A stretch of 58,218 nt of DNA, from positions 1 to 58,218 of the IMG/VR virus record IMGVR_UViG_3300043538_000065, one strand, 5' to 3'. The position numbers and the translations under genes are program-made. The stretch's first letter is position 1. Each line of letters opens with the position of its first letter. Of this stretch, positions 29,804 to 48,933 are shown piece after piece. The notes under the pieces are model-generated. The model was not told the origin of the DNA and made no database searches. It worked only from the letters and a program-made list of their open reading frames with translations. The DNA is from a virus.

Positions 29804-31834
29804 TCAAATCCCCCGGTTCATTTCCGCAAGCCGCGCCCATGGATCGTCTTTCGGCACTTCGATCGGTATCTCGCCCGTCACCATGTCGGCTCCGCGCTGG
29901 AACGCGCGCGGCGTGAACAGATCCGGCGTGCGCAGGTCTTCCGGAATGCCGCGCTCGGCAGCAAGCCGGGCCCAATCGTCCGAGGTGAAGCTCGCGAAGT
30001 ACGCATCGAGCGAGGCCATGTTGTAGATGCGGCAATCCAGCCAGTGATTGTCGGCGCCAGCGCGCACGGTCCACACTTGCAGCTTGCGCTTCTTCTTGCC
30101 CTTGCCGGTCTTTTCGTCGGCAAGGAATTCCGACGTGATCTGCTTGAAGTAGGCTTCGTCCAGAAAGTTTCCGAAGTGGCAATAGCCCATCGGATAGACC
30201 AGGCTGGAGCCTTCCGCCTTCGCCACTAGGGCGAGATAGGTGTAGAACGTGCTCTTCAGCGGCCAAGTGCCGACGAAGCGGACGGTTGCGCCGCCCTTCA
30301 TCACCTTGCCGCGGTAGTCGATATCTTGCGGCGCAGCCGCGCTCAGTGGCGGGCGGCCCCATCCGTCGCGCCCGATGACGGCTTGTGTACCCGCATGCAG
30401 TCGTGTCCAAGTCTTGACCGCGCCGGCGTTGTAGTTGGAATCGACCGAAAACGTATCGTGCCTTCGCAACTGGCCGTAAGCATCGGGCCAGGTCCGGTGA
30501 TACAGCTTGGTCAACTCAAGAAACGCGCCGCCGTCATGATCTGTCGTCGCGCCGTCGATATAACCGTAGTCGACAACCCAGCTCTCGCGATTTGGCGCGA
30601 CCGCTAGGCCCTCCCAATAGATGCCGCGCTTCTGCACGTCGGAAGCCATCGCGTATAGCAGCGCGCCCGGCGGAATGTGACCACGTCGATAATCCTCGCG
30701 GCGCTCGAACAGCCGCATGTGGTCCGGCGCATCGCCGCGGAAACGATAGGCGAGACCCATTTTCAGGGTCGAGTAGTCTTTTTTCGCGGTCTCGCTCTTG
30801 CGCGAGCCGAGCCAATCTTCCGCGAGCGCCTCATACGACATCATCAGCGAGATGAAAGCGTCGATATGAAAGCCCGGCTGGCGTCTTAAGTCGTCGAGAA
30901 CGCTTGCGATCCACTTTCCGGCGCGGACCGCGTCGACACGCTCGGTTTCGGTGACATTGTGACCGCAGTCGCAGCGATAGACCGAGCGATGCGGGTGTTT
31001 TTCATCGATCAGGAAGTTGTCGAAGCGATGGACGAAGCGTTTTAGGCATTCCGGGCACAGACAATTCCAAAACCGCTGATCGGAACGCTCGAACTTCAGC
31101 GTAATCCGGCAGTGTCCCTCGGTGTCTCCGCTCGGATCGCCGGTATCGACCTCCGGCGTCGAGATATTCAGGATCTTGAAGTTCTTCCGACGTCGGAACG
31201 CCGTGAAGCGCCCTTTGAACAGCGTATCCGGATCGCCAAAGCCCGGAATATTCTGCCATTTGGAGAATTCGTCGCGAATTCCCTTCTTGGCTGTCTTGCC
31301 GCTCATATCCATCACGGAATGAGCGTTGGCGAGCCATAGCCGGCCGCCTGCGAATACTTTTTCTGTCGTGGTCGAGCCCGCCATCTGGCGGGCCAGCGGA
31401 TAGATCACCGGCGGTTTGTTGCCGCCGATGCCGTCGCGCCTGGTATGCTTCTGCCAGGCGTCGATCAGCGGCTGAAGTTTGGCGTTGTTGATGTCCCGAA
31501 GGAACTCGATTCCGGGACATGCGTACAACGTATTGGCAGGCTCGCAGTCGGCGATGAACAAACCCCACGCCAATGCGAGGATCGACGCGCCGGATTGCTC
31601 CGATTTGCGGATGCTGACCTCAGTGCAGGGATGATCGTCCCCAAGACACTCGGCAATCTCGCGCAGGTAGGGGGCGCCGTCGGCGCTCCACAACTCGCCC
31701 GCGTTGGGACCGTCGATCAGCTTGATGTTTTTCGGCAACCAGTCGACGAAACCGACTTCTTCCCGCGGCGACAGCGATGCATCGAAGACCGCCGCAAGCC
31801 TGTCATACGCCGTTTGTTTGAACTGGATCGTCAT
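29804..31834 (-). CDS. Terminase large subunit, GpA family
   Basis: 676 residues. N-terminal ATPase with the Walker A variant RKSEQSGAS (about 76-84), then DEFSKWQNIPGFGDP and a Cys4 zinc site (CPEC and CDCGH, about 260-300). The C-terminal nuclease half includes VDSNYNAGAVKTW. The family is lambda gpA (Phage_GPA), so packaging may proceed from cos ends. The start overlaps 32 bases of the small-subunit gene. Confidence 0.95.
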   Translation of the reverse strand: MTIQFKQTAYDRLAAVFDASLSPREEVGFVDWLPKNIKLIDGPNAGELWSADGAPYLREIAECLGDDHPCTEVSIRKSEQSGASILALAWGLFIADCEPANTLYACPGIEFLRDINNAKLQPLIDAWQKHTRRDGIGGNKPPVIYPLARQMAGSTTTEKVFAGGRLWLANAHSVMDMSGKTAKKGIRDEFSKWQNIPGFGDPDTLFKGRFTAFRRRKNFKILNISTPEVDTGDPSGDTEGHCRITLKFERSDQRFWNCLCPECLKRFVHRFDNFLIDEKHPHRSVYRCDCGHNVTETERVDAVRAGKWIASVLDDLRRQPGFHIDAFISLMMSYEALAEDWLGSRKSETAKKDYSTLKMGLAYRFRGDAPDHMRLFERREDYRRGHIPPGALLYAMASDVQKRGIYWEGLAVAPNRESWVVDYGYIDGATTDHDGGAFLELTKLYHRTWPDAYGQLRRHDTFSVDSNYNAGAVKTWTRLHAGTQAVIGRDGWGRPPLSAAAPQDIDYRGKVMKGGATVRFVGTWPLKSTFYTYLALVAKAEGSSLVYPMGYCHFGNFLDEAYFKQITSEFLADEKTGKGKKKRKLQVWTVRAGADNHWLDCRIYNMASLDAYFASFTSDDWARLAAERGIPEDLRTPDLFTPRAFQRGADMVTGEIPIEVPKDDPWARLAEMNRGI

Positions 31835-32468
31835 CGGACAGCAAATCGGCCTGCAGCATGGGTACGCCGCTCGCGTTTGAGGCGGCGCGGGCGCGAGCGG
31901 CGATGGCCATGTCTTTCATCGCCGTCACGATCGCGACCCGCTGCGTCCTGGCGATCCGCTTCAGTGCCGCGCGCATGCCGTTCTCGCCTTCCTTGATCGC
32001 GACCGCGGTCAAATCGGAATCCCGCGCCAGCAAACCATCCACGATATCGCCGATGCGGCTGGCGGCATCTTCGGCCAGTGGATCGAAGTCGGCGACGGCA
32101 AGCAGGTTGCCCCGCGCGCGCTCGAGGTCGATGAACTTCAGGTCCGCCGCATAAGCCTTGTCGCGCGTCTGTTCGTCGCGAAGCCTGCCGTCCGGCAACT
32201 TCGGCGAGATGGTGGTGTCTGCCCTATCGGCAGCCTTTGTGGCTGCGCCCTGCTCTCTCGCCCCGTCGCCGACCTCGCCGATCGCGGTATCGTATTGCGC
32301 AAGGTTGATAAGCTTCTGTTTTCCAGCACCCGGCTTTGTGGTCAGCCTGCCTTCCGAGACCAGTCGCGTTACCTTTTCCGAGATCGTCGACTTGCCGACG
32401 CCCTTCTTTTCGGCCAATTCCGTGACCGAAAGCCACAGCCCATCGTCAAGTTCGGTGTGTTCGGCCAT
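31803..32468 (-). CDS. Terminase small subunit with winged HTH
   Basis: 221 residues. N-terminal helix-turn-helix (about 10-45: LSVTELAEKKGVGKSTISEK, RLVSEGRLTTKPGAG), then a linker and a helical C-terminus. In this position, directly upstream of GpA, it is expected to bind the cos/pac site. The overlap of 32 bases with the large subunit is longer than usual. Confidence 0.8.
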   Translation of the reverse strand: MAEHTELDDGLWLSVTELAEKKGVGKSTISEKVTRLVSEGRLTTKPGAGKQKLINLAQYDTAIGEVGDGAREQGAATKAADRADTTISPKLPDGRLRDEQTRDKAYAADLKFIDLERARGNLLAVADFDPLAEDAASRIGDIVDGLLARDSDLTAVAIKEGENGMRAALKRIARTQRVAIVTAMKDMAIAARARAASNASGVPMLQADLLSDDDPVQTNGV

Positions 32469-32599: not shown

Positions 32600-33175
32600 T
32601 CAGTGGCCGCGCAGGGTGTCGTTAATGGCCCGCTCGACCTGGAGCGGAAGATCGGTCGTCACCATGGCGTCGAAGGCTGCAAGCGTCCGGCCCTGCAACA
32701 TCTCCGTCGGGATGTAGACGCCGCTCCGCCCGCCCTCGATCGGCAAACGGCCCTTGCCCCTGCGCACGAAGACGTTGCCGTCCATTCCCTTGCCTTTGCC
32801 GCGACTGTCCAAGCGAACGCGCTTGGGAAAGCGGCCGGCTTTCATGAACGTGTGGGGTACAACGATCCGCTTGCCGAGCGGTGCAGCACTCACACCCGAC
32901 CGGGTCTCTCGCGCCTTGAAGAAGCGCAGGTTGATGTTGCCGCCACGCGTCTTGAGGGCAAAGCTTAAGTTCCGCTCGCTGGCGCGATAGGACTTCACCG
33001 CGCGCTTGATCGTCTTGCGGGGCAGTCCGGTTTGGTCCGTCAACGCCCGCACGACCTGTGTGACGGCTTTCGCGCCTGTCCGGTTGAGCGCCCGCATCGC
33101 TACCTTGGGCATCGCCCGCCGAAGGTCCACTAGGCGCTCAATCTGCTCAATATTCAGCGAACGGCCGAAATTCAT
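32600..33175 (-). CDS. Minor tail protein Z-like
   Basis: 191 residues. RRAMPKVAMRALNRTGAKAV, TGLPRKTIKRAVKSYRASE and SGVYIPTEMLQGR match the prophage minor tail protein Z (GPZ) group. It would help complete the tail and join it to the head. Unusually it lies upstream of the terminase rather than among the tail genes. ATGA overlap with the small gene before it. Confidence 0.8.
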   Translation of the reverse strand: MNFGRSLNIEQIERLVDLRRAMPKVAMRALNRTGAKAVTQVVRALTDQTGLPRKTIKRAVKSYRASERNLSFALKTRGGNINLRFFKARETRSGVSAAPLGKRIVVPHTFMKAGRFPKRVRLDSRGKGKGMDGNVFVRRGKGRLPIEGGRSGVYIPTEMLQGRTLAAFDAMVTTDLPLQVERAINDTLRGH

Positions 33176-33360
33176 CTTCGCATCCCAAGCCCGGCGGTCC
33201 TGCGAACCAAAGCCAGCCTTGTGCGCGCCTGGAACGCAACATCCTCAATCAAGCTACGGGCAACGAAGCGAACGCTCTCGGTTACGGCGCCGGAATCACC
33301 GCGCCCAACAGCCGACGCGGCGCGCTTCAAGGCAAGCTGGCGTTCAGCACATCGGCACAT
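33172..33360 (-). CDS. First small gene of the late operon
   Basis: 62 residues from the ATG at 33360, beginning MCRCAERQLALKRAASAVGR and basic, helical. Coupled to the Z-like gene by ATGA. No clear RBS was found. Function unknown. Confidence 0.5.
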   Translation of the reverse strand: MCRCAERQLALKRAASAVGRGDSGAVTESVRFVARSLIEDVAFQARTRLALVRRTAGLGMRR

Positions 33361-33456
33361 CGAGGAAAATCCGAAAAGGGCCGGCCCGCCTGCGGAGAGC
33401 GTCAACAAGCGGGCGGCCCAAGTCTAGGGAGGAAACGCCCAAAGAGGGCTAAGGCT

Positions 33457-33480
33457 GCGATAGCGCCGACGCGCTACCGC
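33457..33480. promoter_or_regulatory. Dyad between terminator and late operon
   Basis: TAGCGC, CGAC, GCGCTA with three further pairs outside one mismatch. It lies 18 bases on the late-gene side of the terminator and about 97 bases before the first late ATG. It could be a protein site or an RNA hairpin linked to antitermination or late promoter control. Confidence 0.45.
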
Positions 33481-33497
33481 ATACCTATAGACATGCA

Positions 33498-33525
33498 AAA
33501 GCCCCGGGCGATGCCGGGGCTTTTT
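33498..33525. terminator. Strong intrinsic terminator before the late operon
   Basis: AAAAGCCCCGG, loop, CCGGGGCTTTT: an 11-bp stem with a 6-base loop, A tract on one side and T tract on the other, so functional in both directions. It stands 84 bases after the NusG-like gene and 138 bases before the first late gene. Leftward early transcripts must pass it to reach the head and tail genes. Confidence 0.9.
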
Positions 33526-33608
33526 GGGCACATTGTTGGCTTCGTGAAGCGAGGTCTTTCTCGCTCCGGTCCGCCAGTCTGTTCCTCTCACTCCCTTTCG
33601 GGCGAGTA

Positions 33609-34286
33609 CTAAGCGGCTAATTGCAACGCATTACGCAGTGTCTGATTCCGTCCCTCCTCGTCAAGCTTAATCAGACTGTCTTGGAAGGCTGACCAAGACC
33701 TGCATGCAACGACCTCGTTGTTCCGCTCCCACTCGGCGCGCGCTAACTCATAGGCCCGCTTCTGCTTGTGGGTCAATCGGCCCTTTTTCGGCGGAGCGAT
33801 TTCTTCCGGGATCATCACTGCAGGCAAAGGGCGCTCACGGTTTTCCACAGCTCTTATCTGATCAATCATGGCGTCGCTGATCACGGCGGGCCGTTTCCTT
33901 CCCCCGGCAGTGTCCACGTACATAATCCGCGACACGCCTGGAATGCTTTCGATTCGACGCTTATGCGCGAGAATGTCCCAGACAAAAACGAAGATGTAGC
34001 CCCGGAACATCAGCCGTGTGACGTCGACCCCACGGCCGCGGCGGATGATGGTTTCTTCGGTCTCGGGCACGAACATGCCAAAGCGCCGGGCTACCAGATG
34101 CGCGGCGGCCGTCCGTTCGCTGTTCGGATGTGCTTCGATCACATGCCATTGCGGCACGGCGCCGGCCACAATTTCAGCCAAACGCTGATTGCCCGGCGTG
34201 TAATCCACGATATCGCCGATGGCAAGATCGCCTCGAAGAGCCGACCGTACCTGTTCCAAATTCCCTTTTTCCACTGCCATCAGCAT
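33609..34286 (-). CDS. NusG-like (NGN domain) transcription antiterminator
   Basis: 225 residues. An N-terminal extension of about 45 residues precedes the NGN domain: QWHVIEAHPNSER (46-58), FVPETEETIIRRG, LMFRGYIFVFV (92-102) and GVSRIMYV (117-124). The C-terminal half lacks an obvious KOW domain and is helical and charged. Specialised NusG paralogues (RfaH, LoaP) bind RNA polymerase and suppress termination. Gene order (antiterminator, terminator, late genes) matches the Q system of lambda. Alternative start ATG at 34280. Confidence 0.85.
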   Translation of the reverse strand: MLMAVEKGNLEQVRSALRGDLAIGDIVDYTPGNQRLAEIVAGAVPQWHVIEAHPNSERTAAAHLVARRFGMFVPETEETIIRRGRGVDVTRLMFRGYIFVFVWDILAHKRRIESIPGVSRIMYVDTAGGRKRPAVISDAMIDQIRAVENRERPLPAVMIPEEIAPPKKGRLTHKQKRAYELARAEWERNNEVVACRSWSAFQDSLIKLDEEGRNQTLRNALQLAA

Positions 34287-34311: not shown

Positions 34312-35103
34312 TCACTTGAAATCTTCCTGTAGGTCTTGATCGGTCATCAGCGGAGGGCCGGTTTCGGCCGTGTAGATTTTGCCCTCGATCGAGGGCGGCC
34401 ACGGCCAAGGCGCGCGGGATCCTTCGACCAAGTGGAGCCGCACCAATCCCGGATCGAAGAACTTGCTTAGGAAGCCGCCCTTCCCGTCCCAAGCGCCCGC
34501 CTGTTGCCGGGTCAGGTGGACCCACGTCTCGGTTGGTGGGGCTTGTGCGAGCGCCGCCAGTTGCTCTGTCACTTGCTTGGTGTAAGTGACCGAACCATCG
34601 CCGCGCCTGAAGATGGTGAAGAATGCCGAGGTGCGACCGACGATGTCATGCAGCACCCGGATCGCCTTCGCTTCAGGGCTGTCGATCGCGTAGACCGGCC
34701 GCGGTTCGGTTTCGCCCCGCTCGGCGATCTGCTTTTCAACGCGCTTTTTCCGTGCAGCATCTTCGCGCCGTGGCGAGACGCGATCTTCGCACGCGTCATA
34801 GACTTCCTTGACCGTCGGCAGGAAATCGCACTTGATCGGCAGGCCTTTGACCGGATGCGTCACGTCGCGGATCACGTCGCGCGGGTATCGCGACAACACG
34901 GCCGTGATCGCGGCGACGTAGGTATCCGGATCGTTGGCGTCACCCTTTCGGTAGCATCCGAACAGGAGGCGCGAGCGCTCCGCTGCGTATTTCTTCAGAA
35001 CCGCCGGGTCCGGTTCCGTCGTCGTCGAACCGTCTGAGGGCGTCGACGAGACGGTCAGCGGCTTGAATGATGTTTCCTTGTCCTTGCTGTCCTGATCGTC
35101 CAT
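34312..35103 (-). CDS. Replication protein, possible helicase loader (lambda P position)
   Basis: 263 residues. LLFGCYRKGDANDPDTYVAA, YPRDVIRDVTHP and FLPTVKEVYDACED resemble the N-terminal region of phage helicase loader-type proteins (pattern FxPTxxExxxACE). The tail is rich in Pro and acidic residues. The 5' part overlaps 164 bases of the preceding initiator-like gene in another frame; both frames look genuine there. Assignment rests on position and weak motifs. Confidence 0.6.
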   Translation of the reverse strand: MDDQDSKDKETSFKPLTVSSTPSDGSTTTEPDPAVLKKYAAERSRLLFGCYRKGDANDPDTYVAAITAVLSRYPRDVIRDVTHPVKGLPIKCDFLPTVKEVYDACEDRVSPRREDAARKKRVEKQIAERGETEPRPVYAIDSPEAKAIRVLHDIVGRTSAFFTIFRRGDGSVTYTKQVTEQLAALAQAPPTETWVHLTRQQAGAWDGKGGFLSKFFDPGLVRLHLVEGSRAPWPWPPSIEGKIYTAETGPPLMTDQDLQEDFK

Positions 35104-35908
35104 TGCGGTTCACCGTGAGTTGTTCCGCTTCCCGGACCTGTACGACCGGGAGCGGCGCCTGCCGTTTGGCAAAGGCGGTTGCGAAGACTTTTTCGAAATA
35201 CGAGATCGGCTTGAACGGCCGATCGGGTGCGAACTTGCGGGTTTCCGCTTCGATCATGTCGGGAGGCCAGCCCTCGCGTTCCCACATCGTGGCGCGGTAA
35301 TCGATTCCGGCAAACTCGGGCGGGATTTGCAGAGGACCGTCGAAGCCGAGCGCTTTCCAGAACACGGATGCGAGCGTCCTTGACCCTGCGGTGAACATCG
35401 TCACGGGTCGCGCGCGCGCATCTCCTCTACCATCCGGTTCAACTGACGGTTCATTATGGGGGTTGCCGCAGTGATACCCCCGGGGCGTCACATCTGCACT
35501 CCCTGGGGTGCTGATCTGATCAGGGGGGGGTGCTACCTGACACCCCCCTTCCCCCCCGTCATCGTCGGCGGATTCACCGTCAGTTTCGGGCGTTTCGCAG
35601 GCCTTTAAGGCCCGCGTCCGACGCATGACTTCATCGGGCGTCAGGGCCAAGTCCAGCCTTATTTCATCGGTCGTCTGCGAGCCATCCTCGCGGTACCGCT
35701 CGAACACGCCGACGACGCGCAGATCAACGAGAAGCTTCATGCGCCGGTTGATCGTGGCCCGCGATTGCGAGCTTTTCGACGCGATCAGGTCGCGCGATGG
35801 CCATGCAATGCCGTCATCGTCGGCATTGTCGGCGATCGCCAGCAACGCGATCTTGGCCCGCGGCTCCAACGGCAGGCCGAACGCCCATGTCATCGCCTTA
35901 ATGCTCAA
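34940..35908 (-). CDS. Replication initiator-like protein with HTH (lambda O position)
   Basis: 322 residues. The family-like N-terminus MSIKAMTWAFGLPLEPRAKI implies the TTG at 35908 as start. A winged HTH of HTH_36 type (about 30-75: GIAWPSRDLIASKSSQSRAT, INRRMKLLVDLRVV) is followed by an acidic low-complexity linker whose DNA holds iteron-like repeats, and a C-terminal domain ending GNIIQAADRLVDALRRF. As in lambda O, the origin may lie inside this gene. Confidence 0.75.
   Translation of the reverse strand: MSIKAMTWAFGLPLEPRAKIALLAIADNADDDGIAWPSRDLIASKSSQSRATINRRMKLLVDLRVVGVFERYREDGSQTTDEIRLDLALTPDEVMRRTRALKACETPETDGESADDDGGEGGCQVAPPPDQISTPGSADVTPRGYHCGNPHNEPSVEPDGRGDARARPVTMFTAGSRTLASVFWKALGFDGPLQIPPEFAGIDYRATMWEREGWPPDMIEAETRKFAPDRPFKPISYFEKVFATAFAKRQAPLPVVQVREAEQLTVNRNGRSGQQGQGNIIQAADRLVDALRRFDDDGTGPGGSEEIRSGALAPPVRMLPKG
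35471..35548. other. Iteron-like repeats within the initiator gene, candidate origin
   Basis: GGGGTGCT occurs at 35505-35512 and again at 35527-35534, 22 bp apart (two helical turns), with inverted relatives around 35475 (GATACCCC) and 35541 (CACCCCCC). An 8-bp stem GGGGGGTG/CACCCCCC spans 35525-35548. Repeats inside the linker of an initiator gene are the lambda ori layout; an AT-rich melting zone is not evident. Confidence 0.4.
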
Positions 35909-35989: not shown

Positions 35990-36916
35990 ATGACTTCGAT
36001 TGTGAGCGTTTACCGTCGCTGGCCGACACGGGCCGATTGCATCCGGCATATGGAGGAAGTGCGATGGGGCGATAAGCCGATCTGCCCCTACTGCGGAGCA
36101 GATCGCGTCTCGCGCAACCGCGACGACAGCCGCGGAGCGACGGCGGAACGCTGGAAATGCCAACGCTGCATCAAGTCGTTTTCGGTCACGGTCGGAACGA
36201 TCTTCCACAACACGCATGTCGATTTGCAGCGCTGGTTTTTGCTGATCTCGCTCATGATGTGCGCGAAGAAGGGACTGAGCGCGATGCAGGCGGCGCGCGA
36301 TCTGGAAATGCGCCGCCCTACCGTGTGGAGCATGATGCATCGCATCCGCGCCGCGATGAAGGATGACGGCGAATTGCTGTCCGGCCTTGTCGAAATGGAC
36401 GAAGCGTTTATCGGAGGCAAGCCGCGCAAGGGCACGCGCAAGGACATGGACGATGACGGCCCGCGCGATCCCGGCTCTAAGACGCCAGTGGTCGCCGCAA
36501 TCCAGCGTGGCGGCAAGGTAAAGGCCCGCGTGATGAAACGGTCGGAGTTGAACGCCAACGTGTTCAAGGCGCTGGTGTACAACTGGATGAAGCAGCGCGA
36601 GACCGTGCTGACAACCGACGAACTGCCGAGCTATCGCAACCTTGCCGACGTGATTCCGCACCGCATGATAAATCACTCCCGTCGCTATTCGCAGAAAGAT
36701 GCGACCTTCGATCTTGGTTTCGGCATGACGCACACCAATACGATTGAGGCGTTCTGGTCCATCGTGCGCCGCGCGATCATGGGGCAGTTCCACCACGTCA
36801 GTCAGAAATACCTGCCGCTGTACATGCGAGAGATTTGCTACAGGTATAACGACCGTATCGACCAATGCGGCTTGGACGGCGTGCTGAATTTGGCGTGCAA
36901 CGGGCGTCAAGGCTGA
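35990..36916 (+). CDS. IS1595-family transposase
   Basis: 308 residues. N-terminal zinc ribbon (CPYC at 32-35, CQRC at 57-60), then GTIFHNTHVDLQRWFLLISL, and the DDE domain with VEMDEAFIGGK, TTDELPSYRNL and THTNTIEAFWSIVRR, as in ISXO2-like transposases. It is the only + strand gene within 15 kb and overlaps the 3' end of the next - gene by 10 bases. No terminal inverted repeats or target duplications were found around it, so it may be a phage-domesticated gene rather than a complete IS. Confidence 0.9.
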   Translation: MTSIVSVYRRWPTRADCIRHMEEVRWGDKPICPYCGADRVSRNRDDSRGATAERWKCQRCIKSFSVTVGTIFHNTHVDLQRWFLLISLMMCAKKGLSAMQAARDLEMRRPTVWSMMHRIRAAMKDDGELLSGLVEMDEAFIGGKPRKGTRKDMDDDGPRDPGSKTPVVAAIQRGGKVKARVMKRSELNANVFKALVYNWMKQRETVLTTDELPSYRNLADVIPHRMINHSRRYSQKDATFDLGFGMTHTNTIEAFWSIVRRAIMGQFHHVSQKYLPLYMREICYRYNDRIDQCGLDGVLNLACNGRQG

Positions 36917-39661: not shown

Positions 39662-42600
39662 TCAGCCTCCATCAGGTCCTGAAGGGGGGGGGGTATTGAC
39701 GGCATCGAACGTCGCCAGATCGAACAGCTGCGGAACGTACATTTTGCTCTCCGCCGCTCGCAGGTGTTCAATGGAGTCAAGGTAAGATACTGAGTTCAAC
39801 TCAACGACCGCGCCCCTGCGACCCTTCAAGATTGCTCTATAAGCGACGGTGCCGAGACCTCCGAAGGGATCGAAGATCAACTCCCCCTCGTTCGAGAAGC
39901 GATTTATCAGCCGGTCGACGGTATCAAACTGGAGCGGACAAATGTGCTTCTCTCGCCCCTGCTGCACCTGCTTTGAGTTGAGGGTGTGCATGCGGCTGAT
40001 GTCGTACCAGACGTTTTCATTAGCCGACCCCGGCGTAAGGCAACTCCACTGGGCAGGCAGGTCGCGAACCCGCTCAAGTCTCTCGCCAATCCTGACGTGT
40101 GCTTCATAATCATAGATGCGCTCGCTTGAGATTTTCGCAAATATCTTGCGAAGGGTCTCAGCCGGCAGGCTCTCAAATTCTTCCGCTGTCAGCAGCCTGT
40201 TGCCGCTCGATCGCCAACGCCCGTGAGCGTCAATCTGCCACCTTGCTCGCGAATAGCCATCGTTTGCGGCTTCACCGTCCGCAAGCCCCTCCCCATCCCA
40301 TTTTTCCTTGACGACGGGCACGTCGGCATATCCGCGCGCTCGATCGCTTTGCCCCTTCCGCATTAGGAGAACGTATTCCGGCGAGCCGACGCCCTTCGTT
40401 GTGGAATCCTTGCAGTTCTCACTCCAGCCTAGGCGATAGCTGCCGTCAGCGTTTTCCTTCACCACATCGGTATCGATCTGGATCATCCCCATCTTGAAGA
40501 ACCCGTGGGCCTTGTAATGCATGACAGCTTCTTCATGGAACGAAGATATCGTCGAAAAGCCCAAGCCCGTCACGCTTCCGAACAGCACGCGGTCCTTGAC
40601 GTGAATGCAGGCGAGCCGGCCGGGCTTGAGCATTCGAAACAGCTCTGTCGTCAAAAAATCCATCTGACTCCAGAAGTGGCCATTGTCATCGGTGTGGCCG
40701 AAGTCGTTATAGGAGGCCGAATATTCGTAGTGGTTCGAAAACGGGATCGATGTAATGATCTGATCGACCGAATTGTCAGGCCAGGTCCGGCATTCGGCGA
40801 CGCAATCGTTGTTGATCGCGATAAATTTCTCACCCCTGATCTCGACGCGCTTGACACCGATGGTGCGCGCAAGAGCGTCGCGCAAGGGCAGCGTGTTGAG
40901 GCCGTGCGCCAGGATGATGGCGCTCATCCGCTTGCGCATCTCGGAATCCAGCGCCCACTTCTGCTCCAAAGTCGCCCGGCCGGCGCGCATGTCTTCGGAA
41001 TAGATGATGTCGACTTCGACTGGGAACGTTTGTCCGAACCGCTGCAGCCGATAGATCGACTGGATAAAATCGTTGAACTTGTAGCCGTCGCCGGGCATGC
41101 CGACGTAGATCGCCTTGTGGCAGTGATACTGGAAATTCGAACCCGATCCCGACAGGATCGGTTTGGTCCCGAAATACTTGACCCGGCCTTCCTCGAAATC
41201 GTGCAGGCGGACTTCCCGGTCGTCGATATCCATGCTGCCGGTGATGGTGACGACTTCAGGCAAGGCCTGTTCGATCGCTTCGCGCTCGGCTTCAAGATCG
41301 TGCCAGATGATCCGATGCGGCTCTGGATCCTTCGCGATGATCTCAACCATCTTCGCAATCCGCGAAGACAGGCTGTCCCGCCGCGACTTCGCCGCATCCT
41401 GCAGGCTGTTTGCGACGTTGCGGAACATGACGCCCTGCCCGTCGCGTTCCGGCTGCGCCTTGGAATGATCCGCGGGCACTTCGTGCCAGGTGAGCTTCAG
41501 CGGCGGCAGTTCATAGCCTTCGTCGCTGTAGCCGAGCTCGGAGGGCCGCTGCAGGAACGCCGCCCACGAATGCACCCACATCCAGAATTCATCTTCCTTG
41601 TGCGGGTAGAGCGTGAGATCGCCGGCCTTTTCCGAGTTGCGCTGGAACCAGCGCGTCAAGGCAAGGCCGGTATCCATGACGCCAAGGAAACCGGCGTAAT
41701 GGATCAATTCCTTGTAGCGGTTCGGCGATGGAGTTGCGGTCGCGACCAGCTTGAATTCGACCTTGGAGAACAGCGGCAGGAATTCTTGAAATGTCTTGGA
41801 GCCGTAGCTGCGCAGCACGCTCGCTTCGTCCAGCGAACAGGCCGCGAACAGGTTCGGATCAAGCTTGCCCTCGCGGATCGATTCATAATTGGTCAGGAAG
41901 TGGACGACGCCTTCGGCCGTGAGCGCGTGGAATTCCGCATTAGTGCGGACGAAGCGCACATCCATGGAAAGCTGCAGCGCTTCCTTGATAAAGCCGTGAC
42001 GAACGCCCAAGGGCACGACGTTGAGCGTCGCGCCGCCGACATGCTTGTGCAGTTGCCGGCACCATTCCAGCTGCATCGCCGTCTTGTGCAGGCCGAAATT
42101 GGCGAAGATCGCAGCACATCCGAGCCGCAGGGCCCAGAGCGTCAGGTCCTTACAGTGCGGCTTCAGCCAGGGATGCAGCGCGTCGCGGTTGACCTCTATA
42201 CCACGTAGTGGCGCAGTGACGATCTTGTCTTCGAGGAAGGCGTCATAGGACGGCCATTCGATAGCGAGGTCGTCGTCGTCGTTCAAATTGTCGGCAAGGG
42301 CCGGATTGGATACCGGGGATTTCCCGCCCGCAAGGGGCATGCACGTCGATCCCTCGAACGCTTTCACCTCGCCGTCCGCCGTTGCCGGCGAACTGAAATC
42401 TACAGCGCCAGGCGCGCACGCCTCACACTTCACATCGGCAACGGAGCCTGCGCCAATTGGCGCAGGCTCGATGGTTTCTGACGGGCCGGGCGCTACGCCG
42501 GCTACTGCACAGTCCGGCCCATTATGGGGTTCCCGGAGTATAGGGCTTTCGCCCATCGGTTTCTGTGCACCCTCCCGATAAGGAGCGGGTCCGCTTTCCC

Positions 42601-43483
42601 CACCTCCGCCAGAACTTTTGAGCAGCGCTTCGCCAGCTTCCGTCAGGCCGATCCGCGTTGTCGTCGCATGCACCAATCCATCGCGGACAAGGCCGCGCAC
42701 GATGGAGAATGTGACCTGTTCGCCTGCCGCAATTGCGCGCAGCGCTGAAAGGGTGGAGCCCGCGCCGTCAGGGGACAGTGACGACACGGGCTCTGATCGC
42801 AGCGACCGGGGAGGATCATCTGCGATAATCGGCGCGGAAGTTAGCCCTCCGGCGCCGGGTTGGGATTGAGGCGAGCCGGCACCCTCCACGCTAAGCGTGA
42901 CTGATGCCGGCTCTGGCAACGCGGCGTTGGCAAGGTCCGGGGCCTCCCGTAGGATCGGGTGCTGCCCCTCTACCGTCAGCCGTCGCTGCGCCGGGTCTGC
43001 GTTTGCTACGGGTGAGCCGCCGTTATTTCGAGCCCCATGTCCAAGAAGATTTTGAGGTTGAGGGGTCGGTTCCGACGGCTCGCCGGTAGCAACTGGCGCG
43101 ATCAGCGACTTCGCCCAATGGATCACCTGGTTGCCGTAGTCCGCGCTGCACTGCGTGCCCTCGCCTCCGGTTTCGGCGTTGCCCATGTAGGTTTGCGCGC
43201 GACGAATAACTTCGTCGACTGCTTCCTGCAGTGCATCTTCGCGGCTGATGAAAAACAGGTCGGGCGCATTGGCGTGGAACCCCGGCGGGTGCGCCAACCA
43301 GTTTCCGTTTTCCAATTCGAGCACGCCTATCTTGGCCCATACGGCCCGGAAGCGCGGGTTGTCGTGTTCGAATATCTCGCCCTGTTCGTCGCGGAAGGAT
43401 CGCCCTTCAGGGCCCAGCGGAGGCTCGCCGGCGGCGTTGCGCAGGATCGGGGTTGCGGGTGTGGTGCGGGCGGGAGCGTTCAT
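39662..43483 (-). CDS. Fused SNF2-like helicase and N-4/N-6 DNA methyltransferase
   Basis: 1273 residues. About 1-130: conserved N-terminal domain; 150-410: Ala/Gly/Pro/Ser-rich linker holding a palindromic repeat; 430-850: SNF2-like helicase with Walker A FGLHKT (Lys about 467), SLDEAS (motif II, about 551), TATPSPNRYKEL (III) and RLQRFGQ (VI); 870-1240: methylase with TSIPF (motif IV, about 910) before FGGLGT (motif I, about 1207), so class beta order. Such fusions resemble P1 DarB-type or defence-related methylase-helicases. Cytoplasmic, acts on phage DNA. ATGA with the upstream gene. Confidence 0.9.
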   Translation of the reverse strand: MNAPARTTPATPILRNAAGEPPLGPEGRSFRDEQGEIFEHDNPRFRAVWAKIGVLELENGNWLAHPPGFHANAPDLFFISREDALQEAVDEVIRRAQTYMGNAETGGEGTQCSADYGNQVIHWAKSLIAPVATGEPSEPTPQPQNLLGHGARNNGGSPVANADPAQRRLTVEGQHPILREAPDLANAALPEPASVTLSVEGAGSPQSQPGAGGLTSAPIIADDPPRSLRSEPVSSLSPDGAGSTLSALRAIAAGEQVTFSIVRGLVRDGLVHATTTRIGLTEAGEALLKSSGGGGESGPAPYREGAQKPMGESPILREPHNGPDCAVAGVAPGPSETIEPAPIGAGSVADVKCEACAPGAVDFSSPATADGEVKAFEGSTCMPLAGGKSPVSNPALADNLNDDDDLAIEWPSYDAFLEDKIVTAPLRGIEVNRDALHPWLKPHCKDLTLWALRLGCAAIFANFGLHKTAMQLEWCRQLHKHVGGATLNVVPLGVRHGFIKEALQLSMDVRFVRTNAEFHALTAEGVVHFLTNYESIREGKLDPNLFAACSLDEASVLRSYGSKTFQEFLPLFSKVEFKLVATATPSPNRYKELIHYAGFLGVMDTGLALTRWFQRNSEKAGDLTLYPHKEDEFWMWVHSWAAFLQRPSELGYSDEGYELPPLKLTWHEVPADHSKAQPERDGQGVMFRNVANSLQDAAKSRRDSLSSRIAKMVEIIAKDPEPHRIIWHDLEAEREAIEQALPEVVTITGSMDIDDREVRLHDFEEGRVKYFGTKPILSGSGSNFQYHCHKAIYVGMPGDGYKFNDFIQSIYRLQRFGQTFPVEVDIIYSEDMRAGRATLEQKWALDSEMRKRMSAIILAHGLNTLPLRDALARTIGVKRVEIRGEKFIAINNDCVAECRTWPDNSVDQIITSIPFSNHYEYSASYNDFGHTDDNGHFWSQMDFLTTELFRMLKPGRLACIHVKDRVLFGSVTGLGFSTISSFHEEAVMHYKAHGFFKMGMIQIDTDVVKENADGSYRLGWSENCKDSTTKGVGSPEYVLLMRKGQSDRARGYADVPVVKEKWDGEGLADGEAANDGYSRARWQIDAHGRWRSSGNRLLTAEEFESLPAETLRKIFAKISSERIYDYEAHVRIGERLERVRDLPAQWSCLTPGSANENVWYDISRMHTLNSKQVQQGREKHICPLQFDTVDRLINRFSNEGELIFDPFGGLGTVAYRAILKGRRGAVVELNSVSYLDSIEHLRAAESKMYVPQLFDLATFDAVNTPPPSGPDGG
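42444..42469. repeat. 26-bp perfect palindrome inside the methylase linker
   Basis: The core TGCGCCAATTGGCGCA is extended by five more complementary bases on each side. It is in frame, coding EPAPIGAGS in the low-complexity linker. Same core at 56270-56285 and, with one change in the centre, at 24440-24459. Confidence 0.95.
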
Positions 43484-44142
43484 GCGGGCGCTCCGGTATC
43501 AACCGGAAAATCTTCCGGATCCAGCGCTTCACCTTTTTTGAGGGCGGATTTCGCGCCGACCGCCGTGAGCCAAAAGATGTTATCGCCACCCGTAAACGCC
43601 GATCCTTTACGACCTCGCGCAAGCCCGGCCGCAACCATGTCGCACCAAGCGACATAGTCAGGATGCCGCTCGCCGGCGACGAAATGGTTGCGGTAGCTCT
43701 GGTTGCGCTTGTTCGGAAGGCCGAGCGCATGGCGGGCGAGTTCACGGCGCTGATCGAGCGCGCTCCTGCCCGGCAGAGGATCGCCGAACAATCCGCCCGT
43801 CAGGCCCAGCACCTCGCATCGCGCCCGCAGTTCGGCGTCGGCAACCAGGATTGCCGTTCGCATGGTCCGCGCCGATGGCGGCAGCGCCGGCGGCATGACG
43901 AGGTTGGCCGGCGCGCGCAGCACAAGGTTTCGATCTGGAGCGGCCTCAATCATGTCGCGCGTTACTGCGTTAACCCGATCTCGTCTCAGCATAGACAACC
44001 GCGTCTGGCAGCTTCCCTTCGGATGCTCCAGGCGTTTTGCCACCTCAGGCCAGGGCAGGCCCTCCACCTCGCGCATCTGCCACAGCAGCGCATTCTGCTG
44101 ATCGGTCCATGGATTGGCGCGGCCCCGGAATCGGTACGTCAT
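43480..44142 (-). CDS. Early DNA-binding protein with SANT/Myb-like N-terminus
   Basis: 220 residues. WTDQQNALLWQMREVEGLPW and EVAKRLEHPKGSCQTRLSML form a helix-turn-helix of the SANT-like type common in phage regulators. A Pro/Arg-rich linker is followed by a second helical domain with NKRNQSYRNHFVAG. It lies between two methylase genes with ATGA overlaps on both sides. Possibly a regulator or target-recognition partner. Confidence 0.75.
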   Translation of the reverse strand: MTYRFRGRANPWTDQQNALLWQMREVEGLPWPEVAKRLEHPKGSCQTRLSMLRRDRVNAVTRDMIEAAPDRNLVLRAPANLVMPPALPPSARTMRTAILVADAELRARCEVLGLTGGLFGDPLPGRSALDQRRELARHALGLPNKRNQSYRNHFVAGERHPDYVAWCDMVAAGLARGRKGSAFTGGDNIFWLTAVGAKSALKKGEALDPEDFPVDTGAPA

Positions 44143-46313
44143 TCCGCCGCCTCCAATATGAATTGAGGCGCGTCGGCTTCATCTGCAAACAGTGCTGTTA
44201 CGCAGGCATCCGCCAATTCGACCGGCACGGCGTTGCCTATCTGCTTGACCTTTTCCGTCTTGTTGCCCGTGAACTCGTATTTCACCAGCTCAGGATCGAA
44301 ACCCATCGCCGCGCCGAGCTCGTAATCCTCCAGCATGCGGAACAGGATGTCGTGACCGGTCGCCTCCACCAAGTTGATGTGGCCAGTGGCGCAGATCGTG
44401 GGCGTCGGAACTTCTAGGGAATGAACGCGCGGTGGTTGGCCCTCACGTTCGCCGAATTGAGCCGCAATAAATGCGAGTTCGCCCCTATGTGCAGTCGTCA
44501 AGGTCGGCAGCGGATCAACCTCGACGTCGCGCGCACGGTTCGACATGTCCGAGTGAGTGACCGGTATCACCAGGGCGAAGCGGTCCAAAGCCGTTACCGT
44601 GGGTAAAGGCTCGTTGACCGTGCTGCAGGTCTCGCCTGATCCCGATCCATAGTACGGAGCAATCAGCGCGATCGCGCCGTCACCAACGTTGGTAGGAAGA
44701 GGATCACTGGTCGCACGCGGCGCACCGCCGGAAGCCTGAGACAAGACGAAGGGCTCAACGATCGCGAACTTGCCTCCCTGTGCGTGAATCGTCTGCAGCG
44801 GGTCATTCAGACTGAGACATCGTCGGGCATCGGGGTTTCGTTCATGCGGGGAATTGCCGTGCGCAACCGCCGCAATGAACGGTTCAACCAACATCGGCCG
44901 CGCGCAGCCGGGACGTTCCTCGTTGCCAGCGCCGCCGGTCGTAAAGCCTGGTAGCGGATCGCTAACCTCACGAGCGGGTGCTTGCCCAGTGGCCAGAATC
45001 AGCGGCTGAACGAGTGCAACGCCGCCGCCTGGCGCGGTAGTGAAACAAGGCGACGGCGAGACTGCGGGATCCTTCGCCGCGTTATTGTTCCGGTTCGCCA
45101 GGATCAACGCTTCCGCCAGCCACACCCCGCCCTTACTGTCCAAGGCCGGTAGCGGCGTGGTCGACACATCCGCCGCCTTGTTGTTCTTGCGGCCGTTAAT
45201 GAAGATCGGCTCCGCCAGCCCAATATGCTGACCGTTCGCGGCCAACGCCGGCACGGGCAGCTCGATCGAGCGGCCGTCGGCATGATTGCGCAGCGTGACT
45301 AACATCGGCGCAAATGTTTCCGCATTTGTAACAGCCGGCGCGGCCGTGCGGCGGAACTCGCGTAGCCATTTGCCGTAGAAACAAGTCCGCGCGCGCGATC
45401 GTCGGCTTACGTCAGGTTTGGCGGCATGACGGCGGGCAAAATTGTAGCGGATGGTGTGGATCAGCGAGCGCTCCAGTTCGGTCCGCAACATGAAGGCGAA
45501 TACCGGCGGCCAACAGAACTTGATGACGCCGGCCAGCACCCGCGCCAGCGTCTTTGGCGCAAGCGGTACCGGCCGGCCGAAGATCGAGCGGCCTTTGATG
45601 TTCCAGTCGATGATGTCGCGCGCAGGGCGCCACGGCTTTGCCGCGCCCTTGCCGTGGCTGATGATCGGCCAAGTGATGTTGCGCCGGCGTTTCTTCGCCA
45701 ACATGATGAAGCGTTTTCGCGTCGTGGCGCTGCCGTAGTTGGCGGCGTTTAGCTTCTGATATTCCGGCTCGAAGTCGAACTTGCGGATATTGTCGATCCA
45801 CATCTCGAAATACTGGCCCTCTTTCTCCTTGATCGGCCGGCGGGTAACGACGTCGACCGGTCCCCACTTTGTGTATTCCCAGACGTTCTCGATCATCAGG
45901 TTGAGGACATCGAGTTCGGCCAGCCAAGTGAGAATGTGCCAAGGGTCGCTGCGCTGCTGGTCCGAGGTGGGCTTTCCGCCGCGCGCGACCGAATGATGCG
46001 TACAGGTTGGCGATGCCATCAGGATGTCGAGATAGCCTTCCGGCACAATCAAGCCGGGCCGCGCCGCTGCGATGTTCTGGAGATAATGCCGGGCCTTGGG
46101 ATGATGGCGCGCGTGAGTATGCAGCGCGATCGGCCAGTGATTGAGGCAGACGAGGTCCATCTCGAAGCCTAGCCGCTCCAGCGCCCGCTTGGCTCCGGTC
46201 GACGTGCCGCCAGCACCGCAAAGCAGATCAGCCACCTTTTTGACGGGACGGCCATTGATGGCATCAAGAATACGTATCGACTCGTCGCGAATATGGTCGA
46301 GTTCGGACTTCAC
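44139..46313 (-). CDS. C5 cytosine DNA methyltransferase with internal repeats
   Basis: 724 residues from the GTG at 46313 (GTGA overlap; GGGAGG upstream). Motif I VADLLCGAGG (27-36), motif IV SPTCTHHS with the catalytic Cys104 (in place of the usual PPCQ), motif VI ENVWEY, motif VIII TRKRFIM, and motif X IGNAVPVELA. Between VIII and X are about eight loose repeats of D-PLPT-TT...ALVEPF (about residues 345-650). These repeats replace a usual target-recognition domain. Protects phage DNA from host restriction, by inference. Confidence 0.9.
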   Translation of the reverse strand: MKSELDHIRDESIRILDAINGRPVKKVADLLCGAGGTSTGAKRALERLGFEMDLVCLNHWPIALHTHARHHPKARHYLQNIAAARPGLIVPEGYLDILMASPTCTHHSVARGGKPTSDQQRSDPWHILTWLAELDVLNLMIENVWEYTKWGPVDVVTRRPIKEKEGQYFEMWIDNIRKFDFEPEYQKLNAANYGSATTRKRFIMLAKKRRRNITWPIISHGKGAAKPWRPARDIIDWNIKGRSIFGRPVPLAPKTLARVLAGVIKFCWPPVFAFMLRTELERSLIHTIRYNFARRHAAKPDVSRRSRARTCFYGKWLREFRRTAAPAVTNAETFAPMLVTLRNHADGRSIELPVPALAANGQHIGLAEPIFINGRKNNKAADVSTTPLPALDSKGGVWLAEALILANRNNNAAKDPAVSPSPCFTTAPGGGVALVQPLILATGQAPAREVSDPLPGFTTGGAGNEERPGCARPMLVEPFIAAVAHGNSPHERNPDARRCLSLNDPLQTIHAQGGKFAIVEPFVLSQASGGAPRATSDPLPTNVGDGAIALIAPYYGSGSGETCSTVNEPLPTVTALDRFALVIPVTHSDMSNRARDVEVDPLPTLTTAHRGELAFIAAQFGEREGQPPRVHSLEVPTPTICATGHINLVEATGHDILFRMLEDYELGAAMGFDPELVKYEFTGNKTEKVKQIGNAVPVELADACVTALFADEADAPQFILEAAE

Positions 46314-46579
46314 TCCGCAGCCTCCCGCACCATTCCGACGCCGCCAAAATGCCATTCAACCGGATAGCCGCCTACGTTTTGCGGCTTTGGCATGCTCCAC
46401 TGCGCTTCAGCGCAGCCGGCGTAGACGTGGAGTTCGCCGTCGCCGAGCGCGATGGTGAAACTGTTGGAGGGCGCGCCGTGGGTTTCGAGAATATCCACCA
46501 GCCAGCGGGCGCCGAACTCGAGTTCGTCGCGCTTCAGCGCAGCGCGCGGGCGGGGCAATGGTGCCTGGATCGGCCTCAT
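46310..46579 (-). CDS. Hypothetical protein, 89 aa
   Basis: ATG start, Arg-rich beginning (PIQAPLPRPRAALKRDELEF), then FTIALGDGELHVYAGCAEAQ and VEWHFGGVGM. Soluble beta-rich fold likely. ATGA and GTGA overlaps on its two sides. Function unknown. Confidence 0.65.
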   Translation of the reverse strand: MRPIQAPLPRPRAALKRDELEFGARWLVDILETHGAPSNSFTIALGDGELHVYAGCAEAQWSMPKPQNVGGYPVEWHFGGVGMVREAAE

Positions 46580-47300: not shown

Positions 47301-47491
47301 GTGCGGCCCTCGATAACATCCATGCCACGAGCATCGAACTCGCAGAGATCGACGCGCGGCTCTGTTAGGTCATAAACGTGGCGCAGCCGTTCTTGCCGGG
47401 ACCATTCGAGAACGCCGGCCTTGTCGCGTTCCCGTTTTCGGTGACGGCGTTGCCGGACAGCATCCGGAGACATTGATGGCGGGCGCTTCAT
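47297..47491 (-). CDS. Small basic hypothetical protein
   Basis: 64 residues, MKRPPSMSPDAVRQRRHRKR, strongly basic at the start and acidic at the end. ATGA overlaps with both neighbours. Basic helix suggests DNA binding. Confidence 0.6.
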   Translation of the reverse strand: MKRPPSMSPDAVRQRRHRKRERDKAGVLEWSRQERLRHVYDLTEPRVDLCEFDARGMDVIEGRT

Positions 47492-48933
47492 TCGGCGGCC
47501 TCCGCAGGTTCAAGGCCAAGCGCCGGCTGCTCAACCTCCGGCGCTTCATTGCCCCATCGAATCCAACCCTCGCGCGCACGACGGGCGTTGAGTTCGATCT
47601 TTGGCGTGTTCGGAAAATGGAATTCCGCGTGTTCGTATTGTTGATCGGGCTTTTCCGAATGTTTGCCGACCGGCGCTTCGAAGCGCGATGGGAAATGCGC
47701 CGTGCTTGGTGCGGTCACCTTGCCGCGCGTTCCGATCAGCAGCAGCTCGTGCTCGCCAGTCACCCAGAAGCCGGGGCCGCGGCCATCACCGTTACGAACC
47801 TTGTCCCAACATCGCTGCGACTTGTAGTCAAAGCCGCGCAGCTCCATCACCTTCATTGCGATGGCGCAATGCGGAATCGTGGTCCACATGTAGAGGACAC
47901 AATCGTCATCGGCGCAGGCGAAGCGCTCCGCAGTGCGGGCAACAATCTCTTCGGCAGTATGTGCGTCACGCGCGGTCGGGTAGTGGTTGGAAGGATGCCG
48001 GTCCATGCCGGTCTCGCGGCTACGGGGCTCGAAATCCCATTCGAAATCTTCCAGCACGACGCCGAACTTGCCTTTGGCGGCGATGGCCGTGCCGAGCTTC
48101 GCTTCCTTGTCGTCGCGCTTTTTCTTTTTCTCAGCCTGGTCTTCGGCGCGGACTTCCTTGGCGACTTTTCGGATTTCTTTTTTGGCATCAGGTGTCAGCT
48201 TGCCGGCTTCGTCGCGCGGCAGCGCATCGAGGATGGGCTTTTGCTCGGTAACCGGCAGCGCCGCAATGCTGGCGGCATCATTGACGGTCACATCGCCTTG
48301 CCGGAAGGCATGCTGCAGCTCGGGCGCGCCCTGATCAAGTACCGTGCTATACCGCTTGATCGACGCGACGCTGACATCGTATCTCTCGGCAGCCTCATCG
48401 TGAGTCATCGGCGGTTCGGTAGACGCCGGCTCAACAGGCTGATCCGCGAACGGCAATGAACTCGTCCTAGATAGCTCACGTGAGCTACCTAGCGTGTAGC
48501 GATTTACGCCACGCGGGATTTTCGCGCGCCGGGCCGCGTAGTCGACCCTCTGCTGGAACGTCAGATGACGCCGTTTAAAATTTTCGTCGTCGAGAAAGTC
48601 AAATAGCTGCGCCAGCGTTCCATTGAAAACGGCGTAGCTGATCGGTCTCCTCAGCTCGAGCAGCTCGCGCACCCGGTTACGGCCGTCAGCGAGCATCGCG
48701 TGATGAAATAGAACCGGCCGATTCTGCCTCTCAGCAAGGGAGGCGCGGAATGGCGGTCGTTGATCCTCCGGAATCATTGGCAGGTAATTCGCCAACGGAT
48801 GAATGAACTTGAACTTGTGCTCAAGCGCCAAGTGCCCGGCGAGCATGTCGGCGAATTCCTGCGACGCGAATTCGGCGGCAAGGCCCTTATAACGCGGCTC
48901 GCCGGGCTGAAGTATCCCGCCTGACTGGATCAT
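47488..48933 (-). CDS. ParB-like domain fused to MT-A70-type adenine methylase fold
   Basis: 481 residues. About 40-120 resembles a ParB-like nuclease/sulfiredoxin fold (HPLANYLPMIPEDQR, ADGRNRVRELLE). About 170-280 is a charged linker with a HTH-like part (DEAAERYDVSVASIKRYSTV) and a Lys-rich coiled coil. About 285-460 is MT-A70-like: SRETGMDRHPSNHYPT, DDCVLYMWTTIPHC, GFWVTGEHELLLIGTRG. The catalytic DPPW is changed to DFEW (about 295). Possibly a methylase with altered activity, or inactive. Confidence 0.8.
   Translation of the reverse strand: MIQSGGILQPGEPRYKGLAAEFASQEFADMLAGHLALEHKFKFIHPLANYLPMIPEDQRPPFRASLAERQNRPVLFHHAMLADGRNRVRELLELRRPISYAVFNGTLAQLFDFLDDENFKRRHLTFQQRVDYAARRAKIPRGVNRYTLGSSRELSRTSSLPFADQPVEPASTEPPMTHDEAAERYDVSVASIKRYSTVLDQGAPELQHAFRQGDVTVNDAASIAALPVTEQKPILDALPRDEAGKLTPDAKKEIRKVAKEVRAEDQAEKKKKRDDKEAKLGTAIAAKGKFGVVLEDFEWDFEPRSRETGMDRHPSNHYPTARDAHTAEEIVARTAERFACADDDCVLYMWTTIPHCAIAMKVMELRGFDYKSQRCWDKVRNGDGRGPGFWVTGEHELLLIGTRGKVTAPSTAHFPSRFEAPVGKHSEKPDQQYEHAEFHFPNTPKIELNARRAREGWIRWGNEAPEVEQPALGLEPAEAAE

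Follow-up and report, generated by a model that had tools for sequence, protein, structure and literature searches.

How is transcription carried across a terminator that stands directly before the late genes of a phage? The question is raised by a region on the minus strand of the IMG/VR virus record IMGVR_UViG_3300043538_000065 (58 kb; positions 1 to 58,218, referred to as the window), in which the early operon, a gene for an NGN-domain protein and the late operon lie on one strand and run in one direction. The initial annotation had proposed that a NusG paralogue takes the place of the antiterminator Q at this point. Comparison supports this well, as the gene holds the same place before a terminator and a late operon in many phages. 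The picture changes, however, in that the leader of the late operon is an alphaR8 RNA element. This RNA (RF00519), its own terminator (T2) and a hairpin that lies past the NGN stop codon but ahead of the first terminator (T1) were absent from the annotation. The best explanation is probably processive antitermination by the phage NusG paralogue, which would carry early-operon transcription into the late operon, with the small RNA (sRNA) as the late leader. The elements concerned are:

33609-34286, minus strand: NusG paralogue, 225 amino acids (aa)
33852-34151, minus strand: NGN domain, residues 46-145
33624-33719, minus strand: region read as a truncated, diverged KOW, residues 190-221 (W-SAF-D..LD..GRNQTL..AL)
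33527-33608, minus strand: structured RNA stretch from the NGN stop codon to T1, candidate loading site
33546-33567, minus strand: inner covarying hairpin GGAGCGAG-AAAGAC-CTCGCTTC
33497-33524, minus strand: terminator T1, 11-bp stem
33480-33489, minus strand: TATAGGTAT, window form of the conserved motif CATAGGNTGT, right after T1
33456-33481, minus strand: leader hairpin, the 5' hairpin of the alphaR8 RNA, holding GCGGTAGCG
33360-33456, minus strand: alphaR8 (RF00519, suhB-MmgR) small-RNA element
33426-33435, minus strand: alphaR8 10-mer seed TTTCCTCCCT, of anti-Shine-Dalgarno type
33374-33419, minus strand: terminator T2 of the alphaR8 element, directly before the first late start codon

A NusG paralogue with a probably truncated KOW ends the early operon

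The NGN gene is the last gene of the early/replication operon, and the preceding gene lies 25 bp away in the same direction. An HMM search confirmed the annotated NGN domain: Pfam PF02357 (NusG) matches residues 46-145 with 46.8 bits against a cut-off of 22.2, and the protein was assigned to PHROG 6386, 'transcription antiterminator'. A profile search of the PDB returned NusG at 1.5e-13. Foldseek with the predicted structure ranked NusG and RfaH first, with the best PDB matches among them, and the NGN domain was modelled confidently by AlphaFold2 (pLDDT about 90-97 across residues 41-140). At the NCBIfam cut-offs the protein belongs to none of the named NusG paralogue families tested, scoring 36.6 bits against 144.5 for the RfaH equivalog, 23.1 against 125 for LoaP and 41 against 100 for UpxY.

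The protein had been described as having no visible KOW domain, and Pfam KOW has no match in it. However, a profile comparison (hhalign, alignment A2 against A1) aligned the region at residues ~190-221 to the KOW of sister proteins in phages, and direct alignment revealed a C-terminal KOW that ends before the last strand, with a conserved RNQTL..AL terminus. The same truncated end is kept in about 20 relatives at 37-83% identity, one of which, in locus L001, is 83% identical to the window protein. Judged from these alignments, the C-terminus is probably a truncated and diverged KOW rather than KOW-less. Structure prediction of this part, a check proposed in the annotation, gave a helical end of low to moderate confidence, and the model makes a helical, RfaH-like auto-inhibited C-terminus possible. 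The NGN protein of L002 (L002:2085-2774) has about 30 additional residues behind the NGN core, an insertion resembling a helix-turn-helix.

Structured RNA surrounds two terminators before the late genes

T1 consists of a perfect 11-bp stem, AAAAGCCCCGG/CCGGGGCTTTT, with a folding energy of -20.4 kcal/mol against -12.4 for shuffles. The annotation had called it an 11-bp bidirectional terminator; the stem held up, but on the minus (transcribed) strand it is followed by just four T and then GCATG, so that it is not an ideal terminator. A consensus terminator scan of the window did not list T1. Terminator hairpins are found at this position in nearly all phages of class I, the group defined below by a shared motif.

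The stretch between the NGN stop codon and T1 is structured (z = -3.4) and alignable in 18 loci. For its inner hairpin, with the loop AAAGAC, 93.5% of cells are paired within the NGN group of the window and 4/6 pairs are changed on both sides, a covariation score reached by 0/500 shuffles. Other NGN groups have paired hairpins, a junction-like fold, or 4-7 copies of a short repeat (GTCACG, GATCAC) in the same interval. Such variety from group to group would be expected if loading site and protein diversified together.

Behind T1, Rfam RF00519 (suhB/MmgR, alphaR8 in the literature) matches with 52.4 bits, above the gathering score of 41. The RNA ends in T2, recognized from its sequence, fold and covarying stem, and the final base of the RNA meets the start codon of the first late open reading frame (ORF). 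Both the 10-mer UUUCCUCCCU and the terminator that mark alphaR8 membership are present in the window copy; the identity of the seed is taken from PMC12559287, and the seed region is nearly invariant among copies. The dyad noticed in the annotation proved to be real and to belong to this RNA: it is the leader hairpin GCGGTAGCGC-GTCG-GCGCTATCGC (z = -3.7), with compensatory changes across 32 phage loci. Leader hairpin, middle hairpin and terminator stem are all kept in class-I copies, the first and last of them with compensatory changes.

The leader hairpin of the window and of about a third of class I holds the ops-like letters GCGGTAGCG. The same letters occur in the hairpin of a chromosomal alphaR8 copy (L035), and they were therefore rejected as proof of RfaH-like loading. 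A mini-ORF in the leader, ATG-CGG-TAG, was rejected because other phages lack it and its spacing to AGG is too short. Between the NGN gene and alphaR8, tandem cassettes of terminator, TAGGG and insert occur in L001 (4767-5230), L007 (10609-10754), L214 (5770-6000) and L172 (3940-4200), and their sequences look as if morons enter here. Inserts between terminators in L107 and L087 resembled tRNAs, but ARAGORN finds none.

The arrangement recurs in diverse phages and is phage-specific

Diverse phages, many of them infecting rhizobia-type bacteria, share one order of elements: NGN gene, structured stretch, terminator, TAGGNT, alphaR8 and late genes. RF00519 lies behind the NGN gene in each of the five loci to which the protein search led (window, L001, L002, L003 and L007), which have packaging genes of differing kinds. 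To avoid circularity, IMG/VR was then searched with the RNA alone. The count took in viral copies that lie outside the query loci and have 700 nt or more of upstream sequence, class I being defined by the motif CATAGGNTGTGCGG with at most 3 mismatches. An NGN gene lies directly upstream of 13/13 class-I copies and of 3/53 other viral copies (p = 2.7e-11, a guide only, as the loci are not fully independent and some phages are related). By eye, the three exceptions also belong to class I, their spacing being shifted. None of 37 chromosomal alphaR8 copies has an NGN gene upstream. As an independent check, Pfam NGN scored above its cut-off in 9/10 diverse members and reached E <= 0.01 in 30/30 members of alignment A6.

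The late genes are linked to the element in a similar manner. A search with three query proteins found a terminase large subunit within 4.5 kb downstream of 18 class-I copies (13 outside the queries; L093 repeats L122) and of none of the remaining copies. The packaging or late genes behind the element vary (gpZ/TerS/gpA or HNH/TerS/TerL) while the element stays, and in many phages whose packaging genes are unrelated, NGN genes of very different sequence stand at the same point ahead of terminator and late operon. In the reverse search, alphaR8 lies behind the gene in about 33 of the 54 loci found through NGN alignments, several being repeats of earlier loci; the rest have degenerate or motif-only forms, and some nothing.

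Two sequenced Bradyrhizobium phages, OP596613 and OP596612, released spontaneously by their host strains (PMC10127595), show the same order from NGN gene to late genes. The NGN protein as a query found no record in the phage collection, and these phages were found through the RNA element only. The NusG paralogue of OP596613.1 (15032-15709) is annotated as 'ABC transporter substrate-binding protein', and that of OP596612 as 'hypothetical', with a Pfam score of 21.7 against the cut-off of 22.2, followed by a KOW match.

In host chromosomes alphaR8 is common (115/150 genomes of the order). The exact class-I pattern was found in 1/397 genomes of the order, in a prophage already known; the pattern is thus phage-specific, and 1/397 gives no reading of its frequency in prophages. 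About 50 further viral alphaR8 copies (class II, L044-L123; also Microcystis phage Mwe-JY08, L216:4001-4036) have no NGN or terminase nearby, and some class-II copies have a TTGAC promoter of their own. From these sequences, phages seem also to carry free alphaR8 sRNAs.

A terminator replaces the promoter of the host RNA

Host chromosomal alphaR8 copies have a TTGAC-N17-CATATT promoter just upstream, which class-I copies lack. Where the host copies have this promoter, class-I phages have a terminator hairpin, with TAGGNT 10-20 nt further on. The motif follows 37/73 terminators behind NGN genes, against 27/377 other terminators (loci at hand, some related). The chromosomal copies were a working positive control for the promoter scan: their best sigma-70 scores averaged 7.5 against 6.0 for shuffles, compared with 4.8 against 5.5 for class-I copies. 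No canonical promoter was seen downstream of T1 in the window, where an active late promoter downstream of 33498 would have spoken against the annotated scheme. A sigma-70 promoter downstream of T1 was rejected, as there is no -35 element, the scores lie under those of shuffles and the positive control worked. A sigma-54 promoter at GG-N10-TTTGCA was also rejected, because spacing and GC are not kept across class I.

Proposed mechanism and its alternatives

From the computed gene order, domain, conservation, covariation, phage specificity and absence of a sigma-70 promoter, we infer readthrough, loading by the upstream RNA, and release and activity of the sRNA. The NGN protein would be produced from the final gene of the early operon. 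Early transcription would leave this gene through the structured RNA and meet T1, then T2 about 100 nt on. Once enough NGN protein has accumulated, it would join RNA polymerase, most likely aided by the RNA stretch just upstream of T1, much as its leader hairpin aids LoaP, and the polymerase would pass both terminators and go on to transcribe the genes for head, tail and lysis. The alphaR8 element would serve as the late mRNA leader and, when T2 acts or after processing, could be released as an MmgR/SisA-type sRNA. Two points favour readthrough out of the early operon: a sigma-70 promoter is lacking after T1, and only transcription that starts upstream covers the covarying hairpin.

Several observations weigh against this explanation. 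T1 has a short U-tract. The short tandem repeats of the A3 group exceed chance only marginally in individual loci, L083 apart. In L005 a window-type hairpin stretch follows an NGN from a different group, and a strict pairing of NGN group with cis element, which this locus breaks, was rejected. No terminator/alphaR8 lies behind the NGN relatives L161, L163, L178, L196-L199, L203 and L213. Around position 4950 of L004/L005 the alphaR8 core is naturally deleted, leaving the terminator and CATAGGG in place, along with the stem of the alphaR8 terminator. The most important letters of a -10 element (T, A and T) are all retained in TAGGNT, so that a promoter may lie at this motif.

Such a promoter would give a lambda-Q/StxS layout, which we regard as the less probable but serious alternative. 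A weak or activated promoter at TAGGNT would make the alphaR8 leader constitutively, stopping at T2 as an sRNA; the NGN protein would load near the start and carry polymerase past T2, and T1 would just end the early operon. The T-A...T of the motif lies about 4-6 nt before the RNA hairpin, the ops-like letters of which would be near the proposed start; StxS of Stx phages is a PR'-tR' leader sRNA of this kind (PMC7873438); and the tandem cassettes of terminator, TAGGG and small insert in L001, L007, L061 and L214 resemble moron insertions with their own start signal. However, the -35 element is absent and the best promoter scores fall under shuffles, the GG of the motif is unlike known -10 elements, the motif is not spaced from the hairpin as the -10 element is in chromosomal copies (about 8 nt), and the covarying hairpin upstream of T1 is given no role.

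A general action of the protein appears unlikely. The NGN protein would displace host NusG and so Rho, or raise elongation on all phage genes, while alphaR8 independently regulates host mRNAs and the two are neighbours through a shared early/late boundary. RfaH does owe its effect largely to countering Rho and to its role in translation (PMC7819879), phage and host copies differ very little in the alphaR8 core, as would be expected of a trans-acting RNA, and other viral alphaR8 copies lie elsewhere without an NGN. Against this stand the exclusive association of the NGN with the class-I context, the lack of an own promoter in class-I copies, and the position of the structured stretch in several groups, exactly between NGN stop codon and terminator. 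Very improbable, finally, is an ordinary intergenic region in which a decayed NusG paralogue, a terminator and alphaR8 are leftovers. The truncated KOW, the natural deletion of the alphaR8 core in L004/L005 and an IS1595 element in the early operon of the window phage would fit decay, but the shared RNQTL..AL end in the relatives, the retention of the element in active phages, and the covariation of the pre-T1 hairpin and the alphaR8 stems argue against it.

Relation to known systems

Processive antitermination by the phage protein would have its closest parallels among known NusG paralogues and late-gene antiterminators. For LoaP of Bacillus velezensis, a leader hairpin, an intrinsic terminator and the paralogue suffice for readthrough (PMC12691694). 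The window likewise has a NusG paralogue and a leader RNA hairpin, followed by an intrinsic terminator and a long operon. The AAAGAC loop of its hairpin, however, lacks the UNCG of LoaP, the LoaP family score is far under the cut-off, and the protein is phage-encoded, the last early gene product and apparently truncated in its KOW, with virion genes as its putative targets. RfaH of E. coli shares the NGN fold, the ops-like letters in about a third of the leader hairpins and the predicted helical C-terminus, but its family score is not reached, the ops-like letters are not specific, and it has another target class. In lambda Q (PR'-6S-tR') and StxS (PMC7873438) the antiterminator gene is likewise closely followed by a leader RNA that ends at a terminator and by the late operon; the protein is unrelated, and the window has no visible sigma-70 promoter between antiterminator gene and leader, which here is of the alphaR8 sRNA family. 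GafZ of the Caulobacter gene transfer agent, which has no similarity to known antiterminators and uses a promoter element between -35 and -10 (PMC11150451), is also an antiterminator that reads through an alphaproteobacterial phage-like late cluster; unlike the window protein, which is itself of NusG type, GafZ works with host NusG. The alphaR8 sRNAs MmgR and SisA-D (RF00519; PMC12559287) have the hairpin, the UUUCCUCCCU seed and the terminator in common with the window copy, but the chromosomal ones are stand-alone with a sigma-70 promoter, whereas the window copy has no visible promoter and lies between phage terminator and late genes.

A search of the open literature on phage NusG paralogues and on alphaR8 and phages turned up no account of the arrangement, which is weak evidence of absence since most subscription papers fell outside the search. 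The recruitment of operon-encoded NusG paralogues has been stated as unknown (PMC7593976). These phages offer dozens of NGN proteins naturally paired with a neighbouring cis element, for comparison and exchange within a small, testable region. A NusG-type Q would join the late-gene antiterminators and account for the late control of many rhizobial and related prophages; the late leaders of phages would also be tied to a host sRNA family that is widely conserved. More tentatively, and with somewhat less confidence than evens, the phages may represent an undescribed class of alphaproteobacterial late switch, in which hyper-diverse NusG paralogues each have a distinct RNA loading element and a captured alphaR8 leader which, when released, would imitate host MmgR/SisA sRNAs and shift host carbon-storage regulation in lysogeny or lysis.

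Neighbouring genes

The late genes expected after the terminator are present on the same strand: the 62-aa ORF, gpZ-like, TerS, TerL, portal, protease, major head, tape measure and endolysin. Flanking genes on both sides are:

34940-35908, minus strand: replication initiation protein, O-like, HTH_36, in the same early operon as the NGN gene
34312-35103, minus strand: early gene, separated from the NGN gene downstream by 25 bp
33172-33360, minus strand: first late ORF, 62 aa, MCRCAERQ.., overlapping the start of the gpZ-like gene
32600-33175, minus strand: tail completion/Neck1, minor tail Z-like
31803-32468, minus strand: terminase small subunit (PHROG 57)
29804-31834, minus strand: terminase large subunit (GpA)

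Small first late ORFs in L001 (5319-5549) and L003 (4642-5010) are like that of the window (MCRCAERQ.. / MACGGCEQ..), and they overlap or just precede the gpZ-like gene; a family search with the small ORF gave no match. Upstream of the NGN gene, an IS1595-family (ISXO2-like) transposase gene (35990-36916, plus strand) lies inside the early operon in the opposite direction, and this insertion could be polar on NGN expression in the window phage. Terminal repeats of the element were looked for around the window copy and none were found. DNA methylase domains (N6_N4_Mtase, C-5 methylase, MT-A70) are present in large early proteins encoded at 39662-43483, 44139-46355 and 47488-48933 on the minus strand of the window.
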